28,439 nt of DNA, from the IMG/VR virus record IMGVR_UViG_3300049734_000338, positions 1 to 28,439 of that record; one strand, written 5' to 3'. Source of the stretch: a virus. Below, piece after piece: positions 4,429 through 15,581 of this stretch; the first letter of the stretch is position 1; each line of letters opens with the position of its first letter. Made by a program: the position numbers and the translations under genes. The notes under the pieces are model-generated. The model did no database searches. It was given only the letters and a program-made list of their open reading frames with translations, and was not told the DNA's origin.

Positions 4429-4589
4429 CCGCGCCCGCTCCCGACCCTCACCGCGCGATGGCCGACGACCTCGTGACCGAGTGGATGAAGGGCTGCGCCG
4501 AGCCCGTGTGCGCGGTCCAGGACGAGCTGCGGCTGCGCGCCATGATCGCGCGCGCCCTCGCCCGGGCCGGGCAGGGGAGTGCGGCGTGA
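4425..4589 (+). CDS. Small unknown helical protein (54 aa)
   Basis: A 54-residue ORF with a GTGA overlap at both ends. It has an acidic helical middle (MADDLVTEWMKG) with two cysteines (C33... region GCAEPVC) and a basic Ala-rich C-terminus. No known family. It lies between the coiled-coil gene and the integrase and is probably co-translated with both. Confidence 0.45.
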   Translation: MTAPAPDPHRAMADDLVTEWMKGCAEPVCAVQDELRLRAMIARALARAGQGSAA

Positions 4590-4738
4590 CCCAGGCCCGC
4601 CCCGAGCCCTTGCGTCCTCCGATGAGCCCCGCCGACAATCGCGCCCTCACGGCCGTGATCGTCGAGCGGCCGGACGACGGAGGGCAGCGATGGGATCGGG
4701 CGATCGCGATGCTTCTCGAAGCCGGGCGGGGGGCCTGA
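4586..4738 (+). CDS. Small unknown protein (50 aa)
   Basis: A 50-residue ORF starting at GTG 4586 (GTGA overlap) and stopping two bases before the integrase ATG. The N-terminus is Pro-rich. The rest (DNRALTAVIVERPDDG, then a short helix RWDRAIAMLLEAG) suggests a small strand-plus-helix peptide. Function unknown. Its stop lies so close to the integrase start that translation is probably coupled. Confidence 0.45.
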   Translation: MTQARPEPLRPPMSPADNRALTAVIVERPDDGGQRWDRAIAMLLEAGRGA

Positions 4739-4740
4739 CG

Positions 4741-6309
4741 ATGCGCGCGGTGCTCTACGCCCGGGTGTCCACGGAAGAGCAGGCGCAGAAGTACGGACTG
4801 AAGGGCCAGGTCCGCGAACTGCGTGCCCACGCGACGGAGAAGGGCTACGAGGTCATCGGCGAGTTCGTGGACGAGGGCCACAGCGGCGCCATCCTCGACC
4901 GTCCCGCGCTGGCCCGCGTGCGCGAGCTGGTGCGCGCCCGCGGCGTTGACGTCGTGCTCGCCCACGACCCGGACCGCATCGCCCGGCGCCTGGTGCTGCA
5001 GGCCATCCTGCACGAGGAGTTTTCGCGCTGCCAGGTTCAGCTGCTCTACGTCACGACTCCGCTCGACGGCACGCCCGAGGGCAAGATGTTCATGCAGTTC
5101 AAGGGCGTGATCGCCGAGTACGAGCGCGAGAAGATCCGCGAGCGCACCATGCGCGGGCGTCGGGAAAAGGCGCGCCAGGGGCGCTACTCGGGGCCGCCGC
5201 CCTTTGGCTATCGCGTCGACCCTGACCACCGTGGAGCCCTCCTCGTCGACGAGGAGGAGGCCGCGCTCGTCCGGATGGTCTATCGCTGGCTCGTCGAGGA
5301 GCGCCGATCGATCCGCGCCATCACCCATGAGCTCCGTGCGCTCGGCGTCCGACCCCGGCGCGGGCGCCGGTGGGCCAAGTCGTCGGTCGCGAAGCTGCTG
5401 ACGGACGAGCGCTACGTCGGCCGGGCCTATTTCAATCGCCGCCGTGTCAGCCTCGACCCCGAGACCGGCAAGCCGGACGGCGTCCGCTACCGGTCGCGCG
5501 AAGAGTGGATCACGGTGCCGGTGCCTGCCCTGCTGGAGGACGGCCTCTTCGCGCAGGCGCAGGCCCAGCTGGCCCGCAACCGGGACGTGCTCGCCGGCCG
5601 GCCGCCGACGCGGATCTATCTCCTGCAGGGCCTCGCCCGGTGTGGGCGGTGCGGGCGCCGGATGAGCGGCGAGACGCATCGCGGCACGACCGTGTACCGC
5701 TGCAAGGGCCGGGATGCCATCGACTATGACGCCGTCCGCTGTCGGCGCTGGGTGTCCGGGCGGCGGGTGGAGACCGTCGTCTGGTCGACGGTTGCCGGGG
5801 TGATCCGGAACCCCCAGGGGCTCCGGCCCCGCCTCGAGGCCTACCGGGCGCGCGTGGGGGCCAGGAACGTGGAGATCGCCTCTCGTGGCGAGGTCCTCCG
5901 CCGCCAGCTCGCCCAGAGCCGTCGGGCGGTCGAGCGACTGCTCGACCTCTACGTCGACGGCCGCCTCACGAAGTCGGCCTTTGCCGAACGCCACGCGCCG
6001 CTGGCCCGCCAGCAGGCGGAGCTCGAGGCCGACCTCGCCGCCATGGGGGAGCGGCTCCAGGAGACCCAGGCCCAGGCGACAGAGAGCGAGGCGATCGAGC
6101 GGGCCTGCGCCCTGGCCGCCCGCGGCCTGGACAAGCTGACCGCCGAGGGCCGCCAGGGTCTCCTCAAAGCCCTCCTGGACGCCTGCGTGATCCATGACGA
6201 CCGCGTGGAAATTCAGGGAGTTCTGCCGACCTCGGAATCGTCCAACCCGTCAGCCCGGGCGGGACGGTTTTCGTATAGCCTCGCGGTCCCGCTCGCCTCC
6301 GCCAAGTGA
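4741..6309 (+). CDS. int: Large serine recombinase (phage integrase)
   Basis: A 522-residue large serine recombinase, which integrates phage DNA at an attB site through a covalent 5'-phosphoserine intermediate. The N-terminal resolvase domain starts with LYARVS (R8, catalytic S10), followed by GLKGQ, GHSGAILDRP and the D78-R79...R82 active-site group. The recombinase domain spans about 150-280 (GPPPFGYRVD; LLTDERYVGRAYFN). The zinc ribbon uses C301, C304, C321 and C334. A C-terminal coiled coil (about 370-460) is the segment that in relatives controls integration versus excision. Length is normal for the family. It implies a temperate lifestyle. Unusually, it sits mid-operon on the same strand as its neighbours, with no intergenic attP visible beside it. 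Confidence 0.95.
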   Translation: MRAVLYARVSTEEQAQKYGLKGQVRELRAHATEKGYEVIGEFVDEGHSGAILDRPALARVRELVRARGVDVVLAHDPDRIARRLVLQAILHEEFSRCQVQLLYVTTPLDGTPEGKMFMQFKGVIAEYEREKIRERTMRGRREKARQGRYSGPPPFGYRVDPDHRGALLVDEEEAALVRMVYRWLVEERRSIRAITHELRALGVRPRRGRRWAKSSVAKLLTDERYVGRAYFNRRRVSLDPETGKPDGVRYRSREEWITVPVPALLEDGLFAQAQAQLARNRDVLAGRPPTRIYLLQGLARCGRCGRRMSGETHRGTTVYRCKGRDAIDYDAVRCRRWVSGRRVETVVWSTVAGVIRNPQGLRPRLEAYRARVGARNVEIASRGEVLRRQLAQSRRAVERLLDLYVDGRLTKSAFAERHAPLARQQAELEADLAAMGERLQETQAQATESEAIERACALAARGLDKLTAEGRQGLLKALLDACVIHDDRVEIQGVLPTSESSNPSARAGRFSYSLAVPLASAK

Positions 6310-7916: not shown

Positions 7917-8080
7917 CCGCCGCCCTCGCCGCCATCACGCCGGCCGAGCTGCAGGAGAAGTACGACCAGCTCACCGACTACGCCTTCCGCCTGCTCAGCG
8001 AGCTGAACGGGGTCCAGCGCGACCGCGAGGACGTGCGGCGGGAGCTGCACGGGCGGCTCAGGCGGCCGGTGGCGGGATGA
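7913..8080 (+). CDS. Small helical protein (55 aa)
   Basis: A 55-residue ORF with ATGA overlaps at both ends. It is helical throughout (ITPAELQEKYDQLTDYAF, then a charged coiled-coil-like segment with RDREDVRRELHGRL). No known domain. Probably an accessory early protein; function unknown. Confidence 0.5.
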   Translation: MTAALAAITPAELQEKYDQLTDYAFRLLSELNGVQRDREDVRRELHGRLRRPVAG

Positions 8081-8275
8081 CCGTCTGCCGCTGCCGCCAC
8101 CTGGTGCGCCGCCACGGCAAGGACGGGGTCTGCCTCGAAGCTGCCCCCCCCACATCGATTCGCGCGCCCCCGGTGTCCGTGCGTGCGCCCGGTCCCGCTC
8201 CGGGGCGTGGTCGGGCTCCAGCGCCGCCTGTTCGACGACACCGACGACCTGCTGATCAGGAGAGCCAGAGCATGA
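8077..8275 (+). CDS. Cys-rich small protein interrupted by a frameshift at a C8 tract
   Basis: The ATG at 8077 overlaps the previous stop and frame 1 reads MTVCRCRHLVRRHGKDG with C4, C6 and C19. After the C8 run at 8144-8151, frame 1 becomes Pro/Arg-rich, while frame 2 reads a good continuation: RCPC, PLRGVVGLQRRLFDDTDDLL, and a TGA at 8273-8275 that overlaps the ParB start in the usual ATGA manner. One extra C in the tract (C8 for C7), or a +1 slip there, would join both halves into a zinc-ribbon-like protein of about 65 residues. Either a sequencing error in the homopolymer or real phase variation or recoding fits. Confidence 0.5.
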
Positions 8276-9720
8276 GCATGAGCACCGAGACCGCGACCTT
8301 CAACGACGCACTCCCACTCGCGAAGCTCCACGAGTCGAAGTGGAACCCTCGCCGCACCTTCGACGCCGCCAAGCTCGCCGAGCTGACGGCCAGCATCCAG
8401 GCGAAGGGCGTGGTGACGCCGCTCCTGGTGCGGCCCAACGCCAGCGGCTACGAGATCGGCGCCGGACATCGCCGGTACCGCGCCGCGAAGGCCGCCGGCG
8501 TGGCCACGGTGCCTGCGCTCATTCGCCCCATGACCGACGAGGAGTTCCTCGAGCTCGTGGTCTTCGAGAACGACGAGCGCGAGGATGTGCACCCGCTCGA
8601 GGAGGCGGCCGGCTACCGCACCATGATGAAAGAGCTGAAGTGGGACGTCGGCCGGATCGCCCAGCGCACGGGCAAATCCGAGAAGTACGTCTACGACCGG
8701 GTGAAGCTGCTCGCCCTGATCCCCGAGGCGCAGAAGCTCTTCCTGGAGAACGCGATCACCGCCGGGCACGCGATCCTCCTGGCGCGCCTGAAGGCGGAGG
8801 ATCAGAAGCGGATCCTCGAGCCCGAGGATCGGGACTGGTCGAAGCAGAGCGTTCTTCTGCGTGAGGACGCGGTGCTGCTCCCGCCCGACCAGGAGGACAC
8901 GCTCGACGAGAAGAAGCTTCCGCTTAAGCCGATCAGCGTCCGCGAGCTGGAGCGCTACATCGCCGAGCACGTCCGGTTCAAGCCGTCCGAGACCGACGCC
9001 TTCCTCTTCCCGGAGACGGCGGCCGCGGTGCAGGCGGCCACCGAGACGAAGAAGAAGATCGTCGAGATCACGCACCTGTCGTTCATCCCGGAGGAGGCGC
9101 GCGAGGGCCGCACGATCCGCGCCGGCTTCTGGAAGTACGCCGGCGGCAAGAAGGGCAAGGCCTGCGACTACGCCGTGACCGGCGTCATCGTGGTCGGGCC
9201 CGAGCAGGGCCAGGCCTTCCCCGTGTGCGTCAACCGCGAGAAGTGCCGCCTGCACTGGGGCAAGGAGATCGCGGCCAAGGAGAAGGCGGCGAAGTCGCCG
9301 GCGAAGAAGACGGCACCTGCCCGCGACGACTACAACGAGCGCTGGAAGCGCGAGCAGGCGGCGCGCGAGGCCGCGCAGGCTCGGTGGAAGAAGGCCCTGC
9401 CGAAGATCCTCGAGGCCGTCGCGGCATGCGTGAAGAAGGCGCCGTTGGAGGCGGGCGGCCTCCTGTCGACGATCCTGCTCGACGAGGTCGGCGGGTATGG
9501 CGGCGCTCGCGTGACGACGGCGGCCGAGTACGTGGCCCGCGGATCCACGGTCGAGGACCTGGTGCGCCACGCGGTCTTCGCCATCCTCGTCGGTGAGGCG
9601 CAGGAGTACAACGCGCCGGACCAGTTCCACAAACGCGCGAAGGCCTTCGGCGTCGACCTCAAGAAGATCCTCGACGCCGCGGCGCCGGTGGAGAAGCCGG
9701 CCGCGAGCCGGATGAAGTGA
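8272..9720 (+). CDS. ParB/Spo0J-like DNA-binding protein (phage type)
   Basis: Start ATG 8272 is set by the Shine-Dalgarno site AGGAGA (8258-8263); the frame is open to 8077 but that part belongs to the preceding gene. The 482-residue product has the ParB N-terminal domain with GAGHRRYRAAKAAG (about 63-76) and the EN..R.D segment (FENDEREDVHPLEEAAGY), both linked to CTP binding and clamp formation in ParB, then an HTH domain (DVGRIAQRTGKSEKYVYDRV, about 125-144). The C-terminal half is specific to phage-type relatives and includes a Cys/His cluster (CVNREKCRLHW) and a Lys/Ala-rich linker. No parA is nearby, so it may act as a regulator or DNA organiser instead of a partition protein. Confidence 0.85.
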   Translation: MSMSTETATFNDALPLAKLHESKWNPRRTFDAAKLAELTASIQAKGVVTPLLVRPNASGYEIGAGHRRYRAAKAAGVATVPALIRPMTDEEFLELVVFENDEREDVHPLEEAAGYRTMMKELKWDVGRIAQRTGKSEKYVYDRVKLLALIPEAQKLFLENAITAGHAILLARLKAEDQKRILEPEDRDWSKQSVLLREDAVLLPPDQEDTLDEKKLPLKPISVRELERYIAEHVRFKPSETDAFLFPETAAAVQAATETKKKIVEITHLSFIPEEAREGRTIRAGFWKYAGGKKGKACDYAVTGVIVVGPEQGQAFPVCVNREKCRLHWGKEIAAKEKAAKSPAKKTAPARDDYNERWKREQAAREAAQARWKKALPKILEAVAACVKKAPLEAGGLLSTILLDEVGGYGGARVTTAAEYVARGSTVEDLVRHAVFAILVGEAQEYNAPDQFHKRAKAFGVDLKKILDAAAPVEKPAASRMK

Positions 9721-9919: not shown

Positions 9920-10438
9920 GTGGCAGATGATGAGAGTGACCGCCCCGCCCGATCGCCGCCGCCCATGACACGCGACGAATTCGAAGCCCAGCGGCGCCAG
10001 CTCGTCTGCAAGGACTGCGGGCACGAGGGGCTTGAGCCCGAGCTCAACGCGAACAATGGCGGGCTCCGTCCGGTGTGCTCGGCATGCGGCAGCAAGACGC
10101 CGCTCGCCGGCCAGTCGTGGCTGCCGAAGGCCGAGCCACGGCGCCCTCGTCGCGGGCTCGTCGACGTCGAGACGATCTGGTCGGCCAACGGCGATCATTG
10201 CGCCTTCTGCGGGAAGAGCCGTGCGCTCTGTGAGCGCCTCGGCATCGGGCTCAGTGCGCAGCACATCGTGCCGTTCGCGGAGGCCGGCGACGCCTGGCCG
10301 CTCGTCCCATTCTGCGCGCGGTGCCAGCAGCAGAGCACCGCCGCCCAGGCCGAGACCCGCCGCGTGCAGGCCACCATTGGGGGGCTCGACGCGGTCATCG
10401 CTCGCATCGAAAAAAACCACCCGGAGCTCCTCGGATGA
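9920..10438 (+). CDS. HNH-like zinc protein at the head of the replication operon
   Basis: A 172-residue product from GTG 9920; ATG 9965 is a plausible alternative that would remove 15 low-complexity residues and leave the inverted repeat fully outside the gene. An N-terminal zinc ribbon uses C30, C33, C53 and C56. Residues 94-136 follow an HNH-type pattern: CAFC (C94, C97), the beta-turn QHIVPF with H115, then PLVPFCARC (C132, C135) and QQ where the usual second His would be. The missing last His suggests a variant or inactive nuclease. It overlaps the primase-helicase gene by ATGA, so it is likely co-expressed with replication proteins. Confidence 0.7.
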   Translation: MADDESDRPARSPPPMTRDEFEAQRRQLVCKDCGHEGLEPELNANNGGLRPVCSACGSKTPLAGQSWLPKAEPRRPRRGLVDVETIWSANGDHCAFCGKSRALCERLGIGLSAQHIVPFAEAGDAWPLVPFCARCQQQSTAAQAETRRVQATIGGLDAVIARIEKNHPELLG

Positions 10439-12054
10439 CCCCCTGTTACGACGCCGCCCGGCAGTACCTCGCGCTCGGCCTGCACCCGATTCCATCGCGC
10501 GGCAAGGTCCCGCTCGTCCCGTGGAAGGAGTATCAAGACGCCCCGCCGCACGCGGATCAGATCGACGAGTGGTATGCCGCCCATCCTGACGCCAACGTCG
10601 GGGTTGTGGTCGGCCGCGGACTCATCGTGGTGGATCTGGACGGCGACGGCGCCGAGGGGCTCCTCCACAACGCGAACGTGGCGCTGCCGCGGGATGCCCC
10701 GCGGGTGCGCACGGGCAACGGCTTCCACGTCTATCTCTCGGTCGAGGAGTCGATCGGGGACCGCATCGGCTTGCTCACCGCGCCTAGCGGTGGGAAGCCC
10801 CAGGTCGATGTGCGCGGCATCGGCTTCGTGGTGGCGCCTCCGAGCCTGCATCCGAACGGTCGCCACTACGAGTGGGTTGTCCCCCTCGGTCCGACGATCC
10901 CGCGCGCGCCATCCGTCCTCCTGGATCTCCTCCGCGCGCCCAAGGCCGCGCCGGGCGCAGGGCGCGAGCCCGTTGGGCACGACTGGGTCGCGACGGCGCT
11001 CCGCGGCGTCGGTGATGGGCTCCGGGATGTGACGTGCACGAAGCTCGCGGGCTACCTCATCGGCAAGGGGCTCGACCAGGAGACCGTCACCACCATCCTG
11101 ACCGAGAGCTTCGGCCGCAACTGCACGCCGCCCTTCCCTCCGGGCGATGTGCGCAAGTGCGTGCAGTCGATCGCGCGCAAGCACGGCGTCAACGGCACGG
11201 AGGACCGGGCGATCACGCCGGTGCACGTGAGTCACGTCCTCGACGGCCTGATCAGCGAGATGCAGGCGGGACCCCGATCGACCGTCCCGACGCCGTTTGC
11301 CTCGGTGAACGACTTCCTGAGCGGCGGGTTCGGGGCGGGCGAGCTGACCTACTGCGGCGCTCGCCCGGGCGTGGGCAAGACGGCCCTCGGGCTCGAGCTG
11401 GGACGGAGTGCGGCCAAGCAGAAGCGGTCCGTGCTGATCGTCTCCCGCGAGATGGTGAACACCGCCCTTGCCCGCCGGATGCTCGCCCAGGAAGCCCGGG
11501 TCGAGGCCCGTTCGCTTCGCTCGGGACGGCTGCAGCCCGGCGAACAGCTGGGCGTCGAGCGCGCCCTGCCCAAGCTGAAGGGGCTGCCGATCTGGATGAC
11601 CGACGAGGCGGTGAGCCTCACCGAGATCACCGACATGGTCGCCGGCTGGTCAGTCTCCCCGAAGCTCGACTTCCTGATCGTCGACTACCTGCAGCTGGTG
11701 CGCGCGCCGATGACGATCCGGGAGCGCCGCCTCCAGGTCGAGGCGGTCAGTCACGGACTGAAGACGCTGGCGCTCCAGTTCAAGCTCGCCGTGCTATGTC
11801 TGTCCTCGCTCGCCCGCACCCGAGACGAACGCGGCAAGGAGCGCCGGCCGACCCTCGGCGATCTCCGCGAGTCCGGCGAGCTCGAGCACGACGCTGACAT
11901 CGTGCTGCTGCTCCACCGCGAGCCGATGAAGCCGGAGACGGACTGCATCGTCGCCAAAAACCGGGACGGCCGGGTCGGCGTCGCCCATCTGACCTTCCGT
12001 CACGAGTTCGTCGCCTTTGACGAGGCCGCTCATCCGGATCGCGAGGGCGCATGA
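10435..12054 (+). CDS. Fused primase-polymerase and DnaB-type replicative helicase
   Basis: A 539-residue protein joining two replisome enzymes. Residues 1-165 match the bifunctional primase-polymerase (AEP) domain: VVDLDGDG (D67, D69), GNGFHVYL (H98), and VDVRGIGFVVAPPS with D125. Residues about 185-250 resemble a primase C-terminal helical domain. Residues about 285-530 are a RecA-fold DnaB helicase: Walker A GARPGVGKT (308-316), Walker B FLIVDYLQL (D417), and the late motif LGDLRESGELEHDADIVLLL with its sensor residues. The usual DnaB N-terminal domain is absent, replaced by the primase. It should prime and unwind the phage fork. It overlaps both neighbours by ATGA. Confidence 0.9.
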   Translation: MTPCYDAARQYLALGLHPIPSRGKVPLVPWKEYQDAPPHADQIDEWYAAHPDANVGVVVGRGLIVVDLDGDGAEGLLHNANVALPRDAPRVRTGNGFHVYLSVEESIGDRIGLLTAPSGGKPQVDVRGIGFVVAPPSLHPNGRHYEWVVPLGPTIPRAPSVLLDLLRAPKAAPGAGREPVGHDWVATALRGVGDGLRDVTCTKLAGYLIGKGLDQETVTTILTESFGRNCTPPFPPGDVRKCVQSIARKHGVNGTEDRAITPVHVSHVLDGLISEMQAGPRSTVPTPFASVNDFLSGGFGAGELTYCGARPGVGKTALGLELGRSAAKQKRSVLIVSREMVNTALARRMLAQEARVEARSLRSGRLQPGEQLGVERALPKLKGLPIWMTDEAVSLTEITDMVAGWSVSPKLDFLIVDYLQLVRAPMTIRERRLQVEAVSHGLKTLALQFKLAVLCLSSLARTRDERGKERRPTLGDLRESGELEHDADIVLLLHREPMKPETDCIVAKNRDGRVGVAHLTFRHEFVAFDEAAHPDREGA

Positions 12055-12902
12055 GCCGCGGCGTCTATCGCAGCGTCCACAGCTCGCTCCTGGATGACCC
12101 GGACTACCAGCGTTTGTCCGCCAGAGCGCGCCACGTGCTCCTGACGGCCCGGCTCTGCCTCGCCGCGGGCCCCGCGTGCATCTTCCGGTACTACCCCGAG
12201 GTCCTCATGCGTCAGACCGGCTACACCCGGCGCCAGGTGGCTGAGGCGCTGGAGGAGCTCGCCGAGCAGAACTGGGCCTACGCGGACGGCAGTGTGCTGT
12301 GGATCAGGAACGGCCTGCGACACGACCCGCAGCTCAGAATGCGGGACAAAAAGCACCTCACGGCGGTCGTCCGACAGCTGGACGGGCTTCCTGCGTCCGC
12401 CCTCGTTGCAAAGTTCTGTCAGTACTACCGAATCAGTAGGCCCTTGCAAGGCCCATCGAAGACCAATCCCGATTTGGCCTCCGATACCGATACCGAAGTA
12501 CTACGTACTACCGATACCGAGAAGGATACCCATTCCGCGAAGAAGGGCCTTCGCGGACCCTTGCCGGCGGACACGCCGCCGGCGGATCGATTCGAGGAGT
12601 TCTATCGGCTCTTTCCGCGTAAGGCCGCCCCCGACGATGCCCGCAGAGCCTGGAAGCAGATCACGAAGCAGGTCTCGCCCGACGCGCTGATCGCTGCCCT
12701 CACGCGCCAGCTGCCCGACTTCTCACGCCGACCGCCCGACCGGGTGCCGTACCCGGCCACGTGGTTGCGAGGCGGCCACTGGCGCAACGAGCCCACGATC
12801 ACCCCAGAGGACGACCCCTACCGAGGCTTCCCGGAGCTCTACGACTGTGAGGCCTGCGGGGGTGCGCACGAGACGAAGCAGTGCCCGGTGCCAGCGCCAT
12901 GA
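12051..12902 (+). CDS. Replisome organizer / replication initiator (lambda-O-like layout)
   Basis: A 283-residue protein coupled to the primase-helicase by ATGA. The N-terminal region (about 15-90) looks like a winged helix: LSARARHVLLTARL, then TGYTRRQVAEALEELAEQ as recognition part and a wing. A low-complexity linker (130-180; repeated DTDTE/TDTEKDT) joins a C-terminal helical domain with the FEEFYRLFPRK...ARRAWKQI signature found in many phage replication and helicase-loader proteins. It ends in a zinc-knuckle-like CEACGGAHETKQC (C-x2-C-x3-H-x4-C). Such proteins bind the origin and recruit helicase. The linker-coding DNA carries the repeats described separately, as lambda O carries its own origin. 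Function by analogy; not a named family match. Confidence 0.75.
   Translation: MSRGVYRSVHSSLLDDPDYQRLSARARHVLLTARLCLAAGPACIFRYYPEVLMRQTGYTRRQVAEALEELAEQNWAYADGSVLWIRNGLRHDPQLRMRDKKHLTAVVRQLDGLPASALVAKFCQYYRISRPLQGPSKTNPDLASDTDTEVLRTTDTEKDTHSAKKGLRGPLPADTPPADRFEEFYRLFPRKAAPDDARRAWKQITKQVSPDALIAALTRQLPDFSRRPPDRVPYPATWLRGGHWRNEPTITPEDDPYRGFPELYDCEACGGAHETKQCPVPAP
12421..12583 (+). repeat. Iteron-like repeats and palindromes inside the initiator gene (candidate origin)
   Basis: Within the linker-coding part of the replisome-organizer gene the DNA is less G+C-rich and repeat-dense. CCGATA occurs at 12481, 12487 and 12511, with CCGA following at 12493 and 12517. AGTACTACCGA at 12421 and GTACTACCGATACCGA at 12505 share a longer unit. 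AGTAC-TAC-GTACT (12497-12509) is a short inverted repeat. CCTTGCAAGG (12442-12451) is a 10-bp palindrome. CCGCGAAG/CTTCGCGG (12535-12542, 12549-12556) and GCCGGCGG/CCGCCGGC (12563-12570, 12576-12583) are perfect 8-bp hairpins. Lambdoid origins lie in the same place, inside gene O. Origin function is inferred. Confidence 0.55.
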
Positions 12903-13279: not shown

Positions 13280-13423
13280 CCGTCGGGGAAGTCTCGCACG
13301 CGCCGTCTAGGGTCCCCGTCTCCCCCCTGAGCTGCGCCGGAGGCATCAGCCTAAGCGATGGATAACTCTGCAAACGATCAGTGTTTCTGATGAAACTTCT
13401 TGCATACCCGCAGGTGTGATGGC
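13280..13423 (+). other. Gap between HNH and small terminase; candidate cos/packaging site
   Basis: This 144-base non-coding stretch lies where cos sites are found in phages with an HNH gene next to the terminase. Its second half (about 13360-13410) is clearly richer in A and T than its surroundings and contains the inverted repeat ATCAG-TGTTT-CTGAT (13377-13391). The first half has a short GGGGA...TCCCC pairing. No promoter pair is convincing. The assignment as a packaging site rests on position and composition only. Confidence 0.4.
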
Positions 13424-13987
13424 ATGACTCGTGGCATGAAGCCGGGGCCGCCGCCAAAGCCGCTCAACCTCCGGCTCCTCGAAGGCAACCCCGGCAAGGT
13501 CCCCCTGAATCTTCGCCAGCCCCGGCCAGAGGCGGGCAGCCTGGAATGCCCGGCCTACCTCGATCGCTACGGCCGAGAGGAGTGGCGCCGCATCGTCGGG
13601 CAGGCGCTCACGATGGGCTACGCGGTGACCGACGTCTCGACGCTGGCGATGGCGTGCGATGCCTACGCGCAGTGGCGACGGGCCCGGGCGAAGTGCGCGG
13701 ACCGGACGGTGCGCCGGCGCGTGCGGGCCGAGGGCCAGCCCGATCGCGTCGAGACCGTGCGGCTCGACGGGCTCGTGCAGGAATCCGGCGCGAACGGCCT
13801 CGTGCCGTCGGCCTGGTTCCGCATCGCGACCGAGGCGCAGCGGATCTACCTGCGCTTCGTCGGCGAGCTCGGCCTGAGCCCGGCTGCGCGCACGCGGATC
13901 GAGACCGAGCCGATCCTCACCCCGCCGCAGTCCCACCCCACCAAGACCGGCACTGACGACCCCGGGCGCTTCTTCCGCGACCAGTAG
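13424..13987 (+). CDS. terS: Terminase small subunit, P27 family
   Basis: A 187-residue protein with the P27/Terminase_4 N-terminal signature: basic Pro-rich start (MKPGPPPKPLNLRLLEGNPGK), then PLN and a helix-rich body (DRYGREEWRRIVGQAL, DAYAQWRRARAK). Small terminases recognise the packaging site and load the large subunit. ATG 13424 is chosen; ATG 13436 would begin exactly at the conserved block and is equally possible. An in-frame ATG at 13400 adds non-conserved residues. The gene ends in FFRDQ and TAG at 13985-13987, probably overlapping the large-subunit reading frame. Confidence 0.88.
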   Translation: MTRGMKPGPPPKPLNLRLLEGNPGKVPLNLRQPRPEAGSLECPAYLDRYGREEWRRIVGQALTMGYAVTDVSTLAMACDAYAQWRRARAKCADRTVRRRVRAEGQPDRVETVRLDGLVQESGANGLVPSAWFRIATEAQRIYLRFVGELGLSPAARTRIETEPILTPPQSHPTKTGTDDPGRFFRDQ

Positions 13988-15581
13988 CGCGAGCGGCGCG
14001 GCGGCGTTCTGGTTCGACGAGGACGCCGCCCAGCGCGCCGTCGACTTCTTCGCGGAGTGCCTGCACCACGTCAAGGGCGAGCACGCGGGCCGGCCCTTCG
14101 TGCTCGAGCCGTGGCAGCGCGACGAGATCATCCGGCCGCTCTTCGGCTGGAAGCGCGTGCGGGCGGACCTGCCGCGCGAGCGCTGGCCGCGGCGCTATCG
14201 GACGGTCTACGTCGAAGTGCCGAAGAAGAACGGCAAGTCGACCCTCGCGGCGGGCCTGGCGCTCTACCTGCTCTTCGCGGACGGTGAGGACGGCGCGGAG
14301 GTCTACGGCGCGGCGGGCGACAAGGACCAGGCGCGGATCGTGTTCGACCTGGCGCGCGACATGCGGGTGGCGAGCCCCGAGCTGCGCAAGCGGTCGAAGG
14401 CCTACAAGAACAGCCTGGTCGTGCACAGCACGGCCTCGACGTACAAGGTGCTCTCCGCGGACGCGCCGACGAAGCACGGCTTCAACGCGCACGCGATCAT
14501 CTTCGACGAGCTGCACGTCCAGCCGACCCGGGAGCTCTGGGACACGCTGACGACGGGCGTGGCGGCGCGCCGACAGCCCGTCACGATCGCGCTCACCACG
14601 GCGGGCTACGACCGGCACTCGATCTGCTGGGAGGTCCACGAGTACGCGCGCAAGGTGCGCGACGGCGCCCTCAAGGATCCGGAGTTCCTGGCCGTGATCT
14701 TTGCGGCGGACGGGGGCGACGACTGGCGCGCGCCGTCGACGTGGGCCAAGGCGAACCCGAGCCTCGGCGTCAGCGTCCAGCCCGAGTACTTCCAGGGCCA
14801 GATCACGAAGGCGGAGGACTCGCTCGCCTACCAGAACACCTTCAAGCGGCTGCACCTGAACCTCTGGACCGAGAGCCTCGTCCGCTGGCTCGATGCCGAC
14901 CGGTGGCAGGCGTGCGCGGCCGCGGTGCCGATGGACGACCTCCTCGGCCGCGACTGCTACGCCGGGCTCGACCTCTCGACAACGACGGACATCACGGCCT
15001 ACGTGCTCCTCTTCCCGCCGCGGACGGCCGAGGAGCCCTACGTCCTCGTCCCGCACTTCTGGGCGCCGGAGGCCTCGATCCGGCTGCGCGCGACACGGGA
15101 TCGCGTGCCGTACGACGTGTGGGCGCAGCAGGGCCAGCTCTTCAAGACCGAGGGCAACGTCGTCGACTACGACGTGGTGCGGGCGTTCATCCGCGGGAGC
15201 ACGGGGCGCTTCCGGATCCGCGAGATCGCCTACGACCGCTGGAACGCGACGCAGCTCGTGACGCAGCTCCTGGACGACGGCGCCCCGATGGTGCCCGTCG
15301 GCCAGGGCTTTCAGAGCCTGTCCGCGCCGACGAAGGAATTCGAGGCGCTCGTCGTCAGCGGGCGCCTGCGCCACGGCGGACACCCCGTCCTCACGTGGAT
15401 GGCGGGCAACGTCGTCATCGCGAAGGACCCGGCCGACAACTGGAAGCCGACGAAGCAGAAGAGCTCCGGGCGCATCGACGGGATCGTCGCCGCGATCATG
15501 GCCCTCGGCCGCGCGATCGTGCAGGCCGACGAGCGCCCCAGCGACCACTACGCCCGGCACGATCTCCTGGTGATCGGATGA
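13953..15581 (+). CDS. terL: Terminase large subunit (HK97/Terminase_1 type)
   Basis: The packaging motor: ATPase plus headful/cos nuclease. Walker A is VPKKNGKST (bases 14217-14243), Walker B IIFDEL (14496-14513). The nuclease domain shows three acidic sites: GLDLSTTTD, IAYDRWN and the late SGRIDGIVAAI. The conserved N-terminal stretch (RAVDFFAECLHHVKGEHAG...FVLEPWQ) begins before the first GTG at 14100, and there is no ATG, GTG or TTG upstream before the in-frame TGA at 13875. I therefore place the start tentatively at CTG 13953, inside the end of the small subunit (542 residues). A start at 14100 would remove a conserved segment. The end overlaps the next gene by ATGA. Confidence 0.85.
   Translation: MTTPGASSATSSASGAAAFWFDEDAAQRAVDFFAECLHHVKGEHAGRPFVLEPWQRDEIIRPLFGWKRVRADLPRERWPRRYRTVYVEVPKKNGKSTLAAGLALYLLFADGEDGAEVYGAAGDKDQARIVFDLARDMRVASPELRKRSKAYKNSLVVHSTASTYKVLSADAPTKHGFNAHAIIFDELHVQPTRELWDTLTTGVAARRQPVTIALTTAGYDRHSICWEVHEYARKVRDGALKDPEFLAVIFAADGGDDWRAPSTWAKANPSLGVSVQPEYFQGQITKAEDSLAYQNTFKRLHLNLWTESLVRWLDADRWQACAAAVPMDDLLGRDCYAGLDLSTTTDITAYVLLFPPRTAEEPYVLVPHFWAPEASIRLRATRDRVPYDVWAQQGQLFKTEGNVVDYDVVRAFIRGSTGRFRIREIAYDRWNATQLVTQLLDDGAPMVPVGQGFQSLSAPTKEFEALVVSGRLRHGGHPVLTWMAGNVVIAKDPADNWKPTKQKSSGRIDGIVAAIMALGRAIVQADERPSDHYARHDLLVIG

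Follow-up and report, generated by a model that had tools for sequence, protein, structure and literature searches.

Where does replication begin in the phage recorded as IMGVR_UViG_3300049734_000338, and can its origin be read from within the gene for its replication initiator? The window analysed here is the whole viral record, 28,439 bp with ~70% G+C, and its gene set is like that of a temperate phage: an Erf-like annealing protein, exonucleases, an integrase, a ParB-like protein, a Prim-Pol-PriCT_1-DnaB helicase fusion, the initiator, an HNH endonuclease, terminase subunits, a portal, a protease, and head genes. A preliminary description had placed a candidate origin at 12421-12583, in the linker-coding part of the initiator gene, on the plan of the lambdoid phages.

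The initiator gene and its product

The replication initiator (replisome organizer) P0001, 283 aa, is encoded on the plus strand at 12051-12902 and was assigned through PHROG 270 and an AlphaFold2 model. Its gene is adjacent to another replication gene, as a 577-aa Prim-Pol/PriCT_1/DnaB-type helicase fusion recognized with Pfam (10321-12054, plus strand) abuts its 5′ side. The profile match to the PHROG 270 “replication initiation protein” family (E 6.4e-16) spans residues 52-253, most of the protein. The AlphaFold2 model, built with 34 sequences, shows a winged helix at residues 11-85, low-confidence helices up to 125, disorder at ~126-178, and a confident helical domain at 179-248. The winged helix is the predicted N-terminal DNA-binding domain (codons 11-85, 12081-12305, plus strand), and its blockwise pLDDT is mostly 82-96, with 64 for block 41-50. 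The C-terminal helical domain (FxxFY..FPRK ... PATWL; 12585-12794, plus strand) is common to many phage initiators and probably contacts the helicase or its loader. The disordered codons 126-178 correspond to nucleotides 12426-12584, coinciding with the repeat region at 12421-12583.

Among solved structures, the best Foldseek matches to the model were the N-domains of 4pql, 4pt7, and 5kbj, all weak (E 0.02-0.05), which, going by the entry titles, are pSK41-type Rep. The RepA_N domain (PF06970) has no Pfam match in P0001, and the fold match to RepA_N initiators is weak. In BFVD, the structure matches were phage replication initiators and replisome organizers. The preliminary description had noted no obvious sequence shared with lambda O, and this was borne out: a match between P0001 and lambda O is undetectable, on which ground homology to O was rejected, and the Phage_rep_O N-terminal domain (PF04492) is absent from P0001. 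The “very different background” ascribed to this phage must be qualified: several of its relatives match PHROGs “replication initiation O-like” families. Over residues 6-125, P0001 is 25% identical to L108, from a Pseudodesulfovibrio genome. P0001 probably belongs, as a distant branch, to a single broad superfamily of initiators.

Elsewhere in the record, the ParB-like protein (547 aa, 8077-9720) and a serine-type integrase (4579-6309; DNA-invertase-type match) occur together in one phage. In temperate phages, partition and integration functions frequently substitute for each other (PMC7157519, for mycobacteriophages).

Repeats and base composition of the linker-coding DNA

The candidate origin at 12421-12583 is dense in direct and inverted repeats, and the repeats, the AGTAC/GTACT inverted repeat, and the 10-bp palindrome first listed for it are all present. 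GTACTACCGA occurs at 12422-12431 (plus strand) and again at 12505, a separation of 83 bp that is not a multiple of three, and the palindrome CCTTGCAAGG lies at 12442-12451; both are candidate binding sites in this phage. A short-unit array occupies 12481-12530 (plus strand) and comprises CCGATA starting at 12481, 12487, and 12511 (spacings of 6, 24, and 30 bp, all in frame), GATACC starting at 12483, 12489, 12513, and 12525, two copies of GTACTAC, and the second copy of GTACTACCGA. GTACTAC, which occurs within GTACTACCGA and also at 12498, has copies separated by 7, 76, and 83 bp, so that they do not share a frame. The inverted repeat AGTAC-TAC-GTACT is found at 12497-12509. Two perfect hairpins were described as having 8 bp each; both exist, and a hairpin search of the record gave 8 bp for one (12563-12583, 5-nt loop) but 9 bp for the other (12534-12557, 6-nt loop). 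The record has ~10 distinct perfect hairpins (stem of at least 8, loop of at most 12), these two being 5 bp apart, and the strand at 12400-12600 folds better than its shuffles (z -3.6). No Rfam match, terminator, or sigma-70 promoter was detected at 12421-12583. We also considered AGGCCCTTGCA/AGGCCCATCGA at 12438-12459 as lag-11 iterons and dropped them, the best out-of-frame lag score being 7.5 against a best-lag null mean of 9.5.

Three nulls that keep the protein the same were used: genome codon usage, permutation within the gene, and permutation of synonymous codons restricted to the linker. The 163-bp region contains 23 direct pairs of 7-mers where these nulls predict 5-7, and 20 inverted pairs where they predict ~3 (p 0.0005-0.0015 for both), so that its 7-base direct and inverted repeats stand at 3-7 times the codon-preserving shuffle level. 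Among 17 genes scanned, the initiator linker was the top repeat outlier (z 4.8; gene-wide p 0.01, the lowest value attainable). The repeats in the P0001 linker exceed codon constraint. The second-ranking codon-corrected repeat cluster of the record lies in the terminase large subunit gene (14199-14361, z 3.1).

Base composition sets the same DNA apart. The region had been described as less G+C-rich than its surroundings, and its G+C of 0.589 over 12421-12583 falls in the lowest 1% of 163-bp windows. The lowest-G+C 120 bp of the record, a candidate unwinding region, is 12410-12529. Its G+C is 0.50, whereas encoding the same protein with gene or genome codon usage would be expected to give 0.60-0.625 (0.625 with the latter). 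Duplex stability over 100 bp also reaches its minimum for the record here, at 12410-12509. A sample of codons taken elsewhere in the initiator gene and in four neighboring genes contains no GTA and a single CTA; the P0001 linker uses the two side by side. A GC-skew change at the site, proposed as a further sign of an origin, did not appear: the profile is uninformative, no turn is seen, and we count this against the origin reading. A second low-G+C stretch, at 13281-13440, is intergenic, lies just 5′ of the terminase small subunit gene, and has a stability nearly down to that of the linker; it is possibly a promoter, cos, or pac region.

It is unlikely that these DNA repeats merely reflect the protein, that is, that a disordered, low-complexity, repetitive peptide (DTDTEVLRTTDTEKDT) causes them, perhaps with slippage. 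The linker is disordered, the CCGATA spacings all keep the frame, and a lag test for tandem iterons of regular spacing in the initiator gene was not significant (lags 6-30, p 0.08-0.11), all of which speaks for this reading. However, synonymous shuffling erases most of the repeats even when confined to the linker, the GTACTAC spacings fall in different frames, and the G+C deficit persists with the protein fixed. The relatives described below add spacings of 10-11 and 22 bp, which are out of frame, and conserved linker codons.

Repeats in the wider initiator family

No DNA-level relatives of the window were found among named phages, and P0001 scanned directly against bacterial genomes gave no match; in sets of 396, 398, and 297 genomes from three phyla, it returned only distant C-domain or weak matches. 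A single close viral contig turned up; at 100% identity over 6.8 kb, it is uninformative on conservation, and the viral and bacterial searches yielded no independent homolog alignable with the window at the DNA level. Given this lack of a closer homolog, the outcome of the lag test, and the lack of 11- or 22-bp periodicity in its linker, the window by itself is a weak case for an embedded origin.

The C-terminal domain gave access to a broader comparison. A tblastn search located it in phages of Pseudomonas, Arthrobacter, Gordonia, Mycobacterium, and Rhizobium. A further 80 viral and 80 bacterial loci came from profile searches, and 105 non-redundant full genes were tested. Direct repeats went beyond the synonymous-codon null (p ≤ 0.01) in 73 of the 105, with ~1 expected and the other 32 not significant at this threshold; these p-values apply to genes sampled from database matches, among which kinship beyond the redundancy filter remains. 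In 97% of the 73 positives, the repeats lie at most 300 nt upstream of the C-domain, where even placement predicts 37%. Under the identical test, only 2 of 98 neighboring ORFs were positive, and lambda O was positive (lag 20, p 0.005).

Third-position G+C in the family drops by up to 0.16, and this drop is confined to the linker. Autocorrelation of the family linkers exceeds the null most strongly at 10-11 and 22 bp (z 5-7), irrespective of reading frame, and the family C-domains give no signal at 11 or 22 bp. None of these spacings is divisible by three, so they cannot follow from the protein; they correspond to one and two helical turns. A helical-turn array together with a separate, non-overlapping short-unit array was found in 14 genes, with the helical-turn array on the 5′ side in 13. 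Taking all genes, the median midpoints of the lag-11 and lag-22 arrays lie 104-119 nt upstream of the C-domain, and those of the lag-5 to lag-7 arrays 56-70 nt upstream; in-frame short arrays of lag 6 could partly stem from low-complexity peptides or slippage, whereas out-of-frame arrays cannot. In three Arthrobacter phages, the segment with GAACCGTCCTT repeats has identical codons in all 38 comparable pairs, against 38% expected.

This comparison changes how the repeats of the window are best read. They had been taken as iterons, and most relatives do carry regular iterons; the window, however, lacks a clear iteron array. Its CCGATA/GTACTAC cluster (12481-12530) ends 61 nt before the C-domain motif, in the position of the short 3′ array of the relatives, and the CCGATA repeats are therefore more likely an unwinding-side array of this kind than classical iterons.

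Several ORFs of ~110-190 aa contain little beyond the C-domain (L028, L032, L038, L047, L058, L061, L110, and others, as well as positions 2492-2872 of the Rhizobium phage L016), which suggests that this domain may exist also as a separate protein.

Another DNA or RNA function for the linker repeats, such as a packaging or cos site for terminase, a centromere-like ParB site, or autoregulation of the initiator, seems quite improbable. It would fit the terminase small and large subunit genes that start ~0.8 kb downstream, the presence of a ParB-like gene, and the two strong hairpins with the favorable folding of their strand, but not the absence of a terminator or Rfam match. In addition, the repeats of ~70% of the relatives, whose neighboring genes differ, are in the initiator linker and not beside terminase or parB genes.

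Conservation and domain exchange among N-terminal relatives

The alignment of homologous initiator genes, proposed earlier as a check, was run on relatives, and their linker DNA is conserved ~2-fold beyond codon constraint. The group used consists of L108 and its 16 viral relatives, in whose linkers (CAGGAR)n comes after AAGGCTT/AAGCCTT repeats. At conserved residues in L108 and L195-L208, the codon-identity ratio is 1.1 (median) in the N-domain and 2.1 in the linker (p 3e-9), and it falls back to ~1 after the linker. The N-parts of the group are related in 105 of 105 pairs and the C-parts in 6 of 105. In L108 and L195-L210, the N-domain and the repeats are kept, and the C-domain changes completely directly after (CAGGAR)n, an apparent recombination junction judging from the sequences. 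Such linkage of N-domain and repeats, with exchange of the C-domain, is as expected if a binding domain is inherited along with the DNA site it recognizes. P0001 is only ~25% identical to the L108 group, and these relatives therefore establish the principle, not the conservation of the window’s own linker.

A probable origin within the initiator gene

We consider the linker-coding DNA at ~12410-12583 to be the replication origin of this phage with a probability of about 0.74. We favor this reading because the repeats and the low G+C both surpass codon-preserving nulls, and because they overlap exactly with the disordered linker, where duplex stability over 100 bp is lowest in the record. The family argues in the same direction through the excess of positive initiator genes over neighboring ORFs, with lambda O among the positives, through a helical-turn spacing that is independent of frame and absent from the C-domain, and through a G+C dip limited to the linker. 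The synonymous conservation of linkers and the co-inheritance of N-domain and repeats among relatives are further grounds. The lambda-like plan of the preliminary description, in which an origin-bearing linker joins a DNA-binding domain to a loader-side C-domain, is supported by the gene architecture and strongly by the family. It is very improbable that the true origin lies elsewhere, for example in the intergenic DNA at 13341-13440 or outside a possibly incomplete record, with the linker repeats as a remnant, for which speak the unclean iterons of the window, the chance that the record is a fragment, and the rank of 13341-13440 as second least stable 100 bp, almost equal to the linker, but against which stand the absence of this segment from the record’s best direct repeats and the position of the linker as the strongest codon-corrected outlier of the 17 genes.

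If the linker is the origin, the N-terminal winged helix would bind repeated sites in the linker DNA, and assembly of the initiator would strain and open the adjoining low-stability segment around the CCGATA/GTACTAC repeats. The C-domain would then recruit the phage’s own primase-helicase, encoded just upstream, onto the opened strand. This scheme is modeled by analogy on lambda O (PMC7466680) and pSK41 Rep (PMC5703833), and the role suggested for the short array on plasmid initiators that bind short repeats in single-stranded form (PMC4081077).

We propose tentatively, with the odds somewhat against it, that origins throughout the superfamily share a conserved two-part design written in the linker. 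Helical-turn iterons would be followed by a short-unit array (5-8 or 14 bp) acting as a specific unwinding/helicase-loading element, and the binding domain and origin would move between phages as a cassette, swapping C-terminal loader domains at the array. The short-unit arrays in this design are not always A+T-rich, as in CAGGAR, AACCAAT, and the CCGATA of the window. The family sequences suggest that initiator-embedded origins may be widespread rather than specific to lambda. If so, a codon-aware repeat test on a single gene could locate the origins of this phage and many others, and origins would become testable even in uncultured phages. The lambda plan might then be a general solution for modular phage initiators, in which the binding domain and its DNA site, carried on one gene, are inherited as a pair while the domain that contacts the helicase is exchanged.

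Comparison with known systems

The closest phage initiators are those of PHROG 270 and related families, in Pseudomonas phages AV001 and JBD68, Arthrobacter phages Kepler, Coral, and Galaxy, Gordonia phages Goib and Aleemily, and Mycobacterium phage Krakatau. They have in common with P0001 the C-terminal domain and the presence of DNA-level repeats in the linker. Their N-domains differ, and in most of them, 11- or 22-bp iterons stand out more clearly than in the window. The open-access literature searched held no experimental origin mapping for these named phages.

In plasmids RK2 and F, the origin lies outside the initiator gene, and their initiators TrfA and RepE showed no relation to the phage initiator in any test made. 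The unwinding region beside their iterons holds short repeats that the initiator binds single-stranded (PMC4081077), a possible counterpart of the window’s short 3′ array.

For mycobacteriophage RepA genes, an origin within the initiator gene has been suggested (PMC7157519). The Rep of pSK41 has a winged-helix N-domain that binds Rep boxes central in rep, a linker encoded by the origin, and a separate helical C-domain (PMC5703833). P0001 as modeled follows a similar plan, with its linker encoded by the candidate origin, and its best solved-structure matches are of this type. The resemblance in fold is weak, however, at E 0.02 for a domain type as common as the winged helix; the C-domain belongs to another family, and pSK41 is a plasmid rather than a phage. 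In pPR9, the RepA_N N-domain and origin are exchangeable as a unit (PMC5703833), which is paralleled in the L108 group.

The precedent for an origin inside an initiator gene is lambda O (PMC7466680). As in lambda and other lambdoids, the candidate origin of our phage is located between the DNA-binding and C-terminal domains, and, as in lambda, repeats precede a low-stability stretch. Unlike O, P0001 has neither a sequence match to O nor PF04492; lambda has four clear 18-bp iterons, whereas those of the window are unclear; and lambda uses the host helicase delivered by P, whereas this phage encodes its own Prim-Pol-DnaB fusion. Lambda O and plasmid pSK41 Rep had already revealed the plan of an origin within the initiator gene, and P0001 would add a member.
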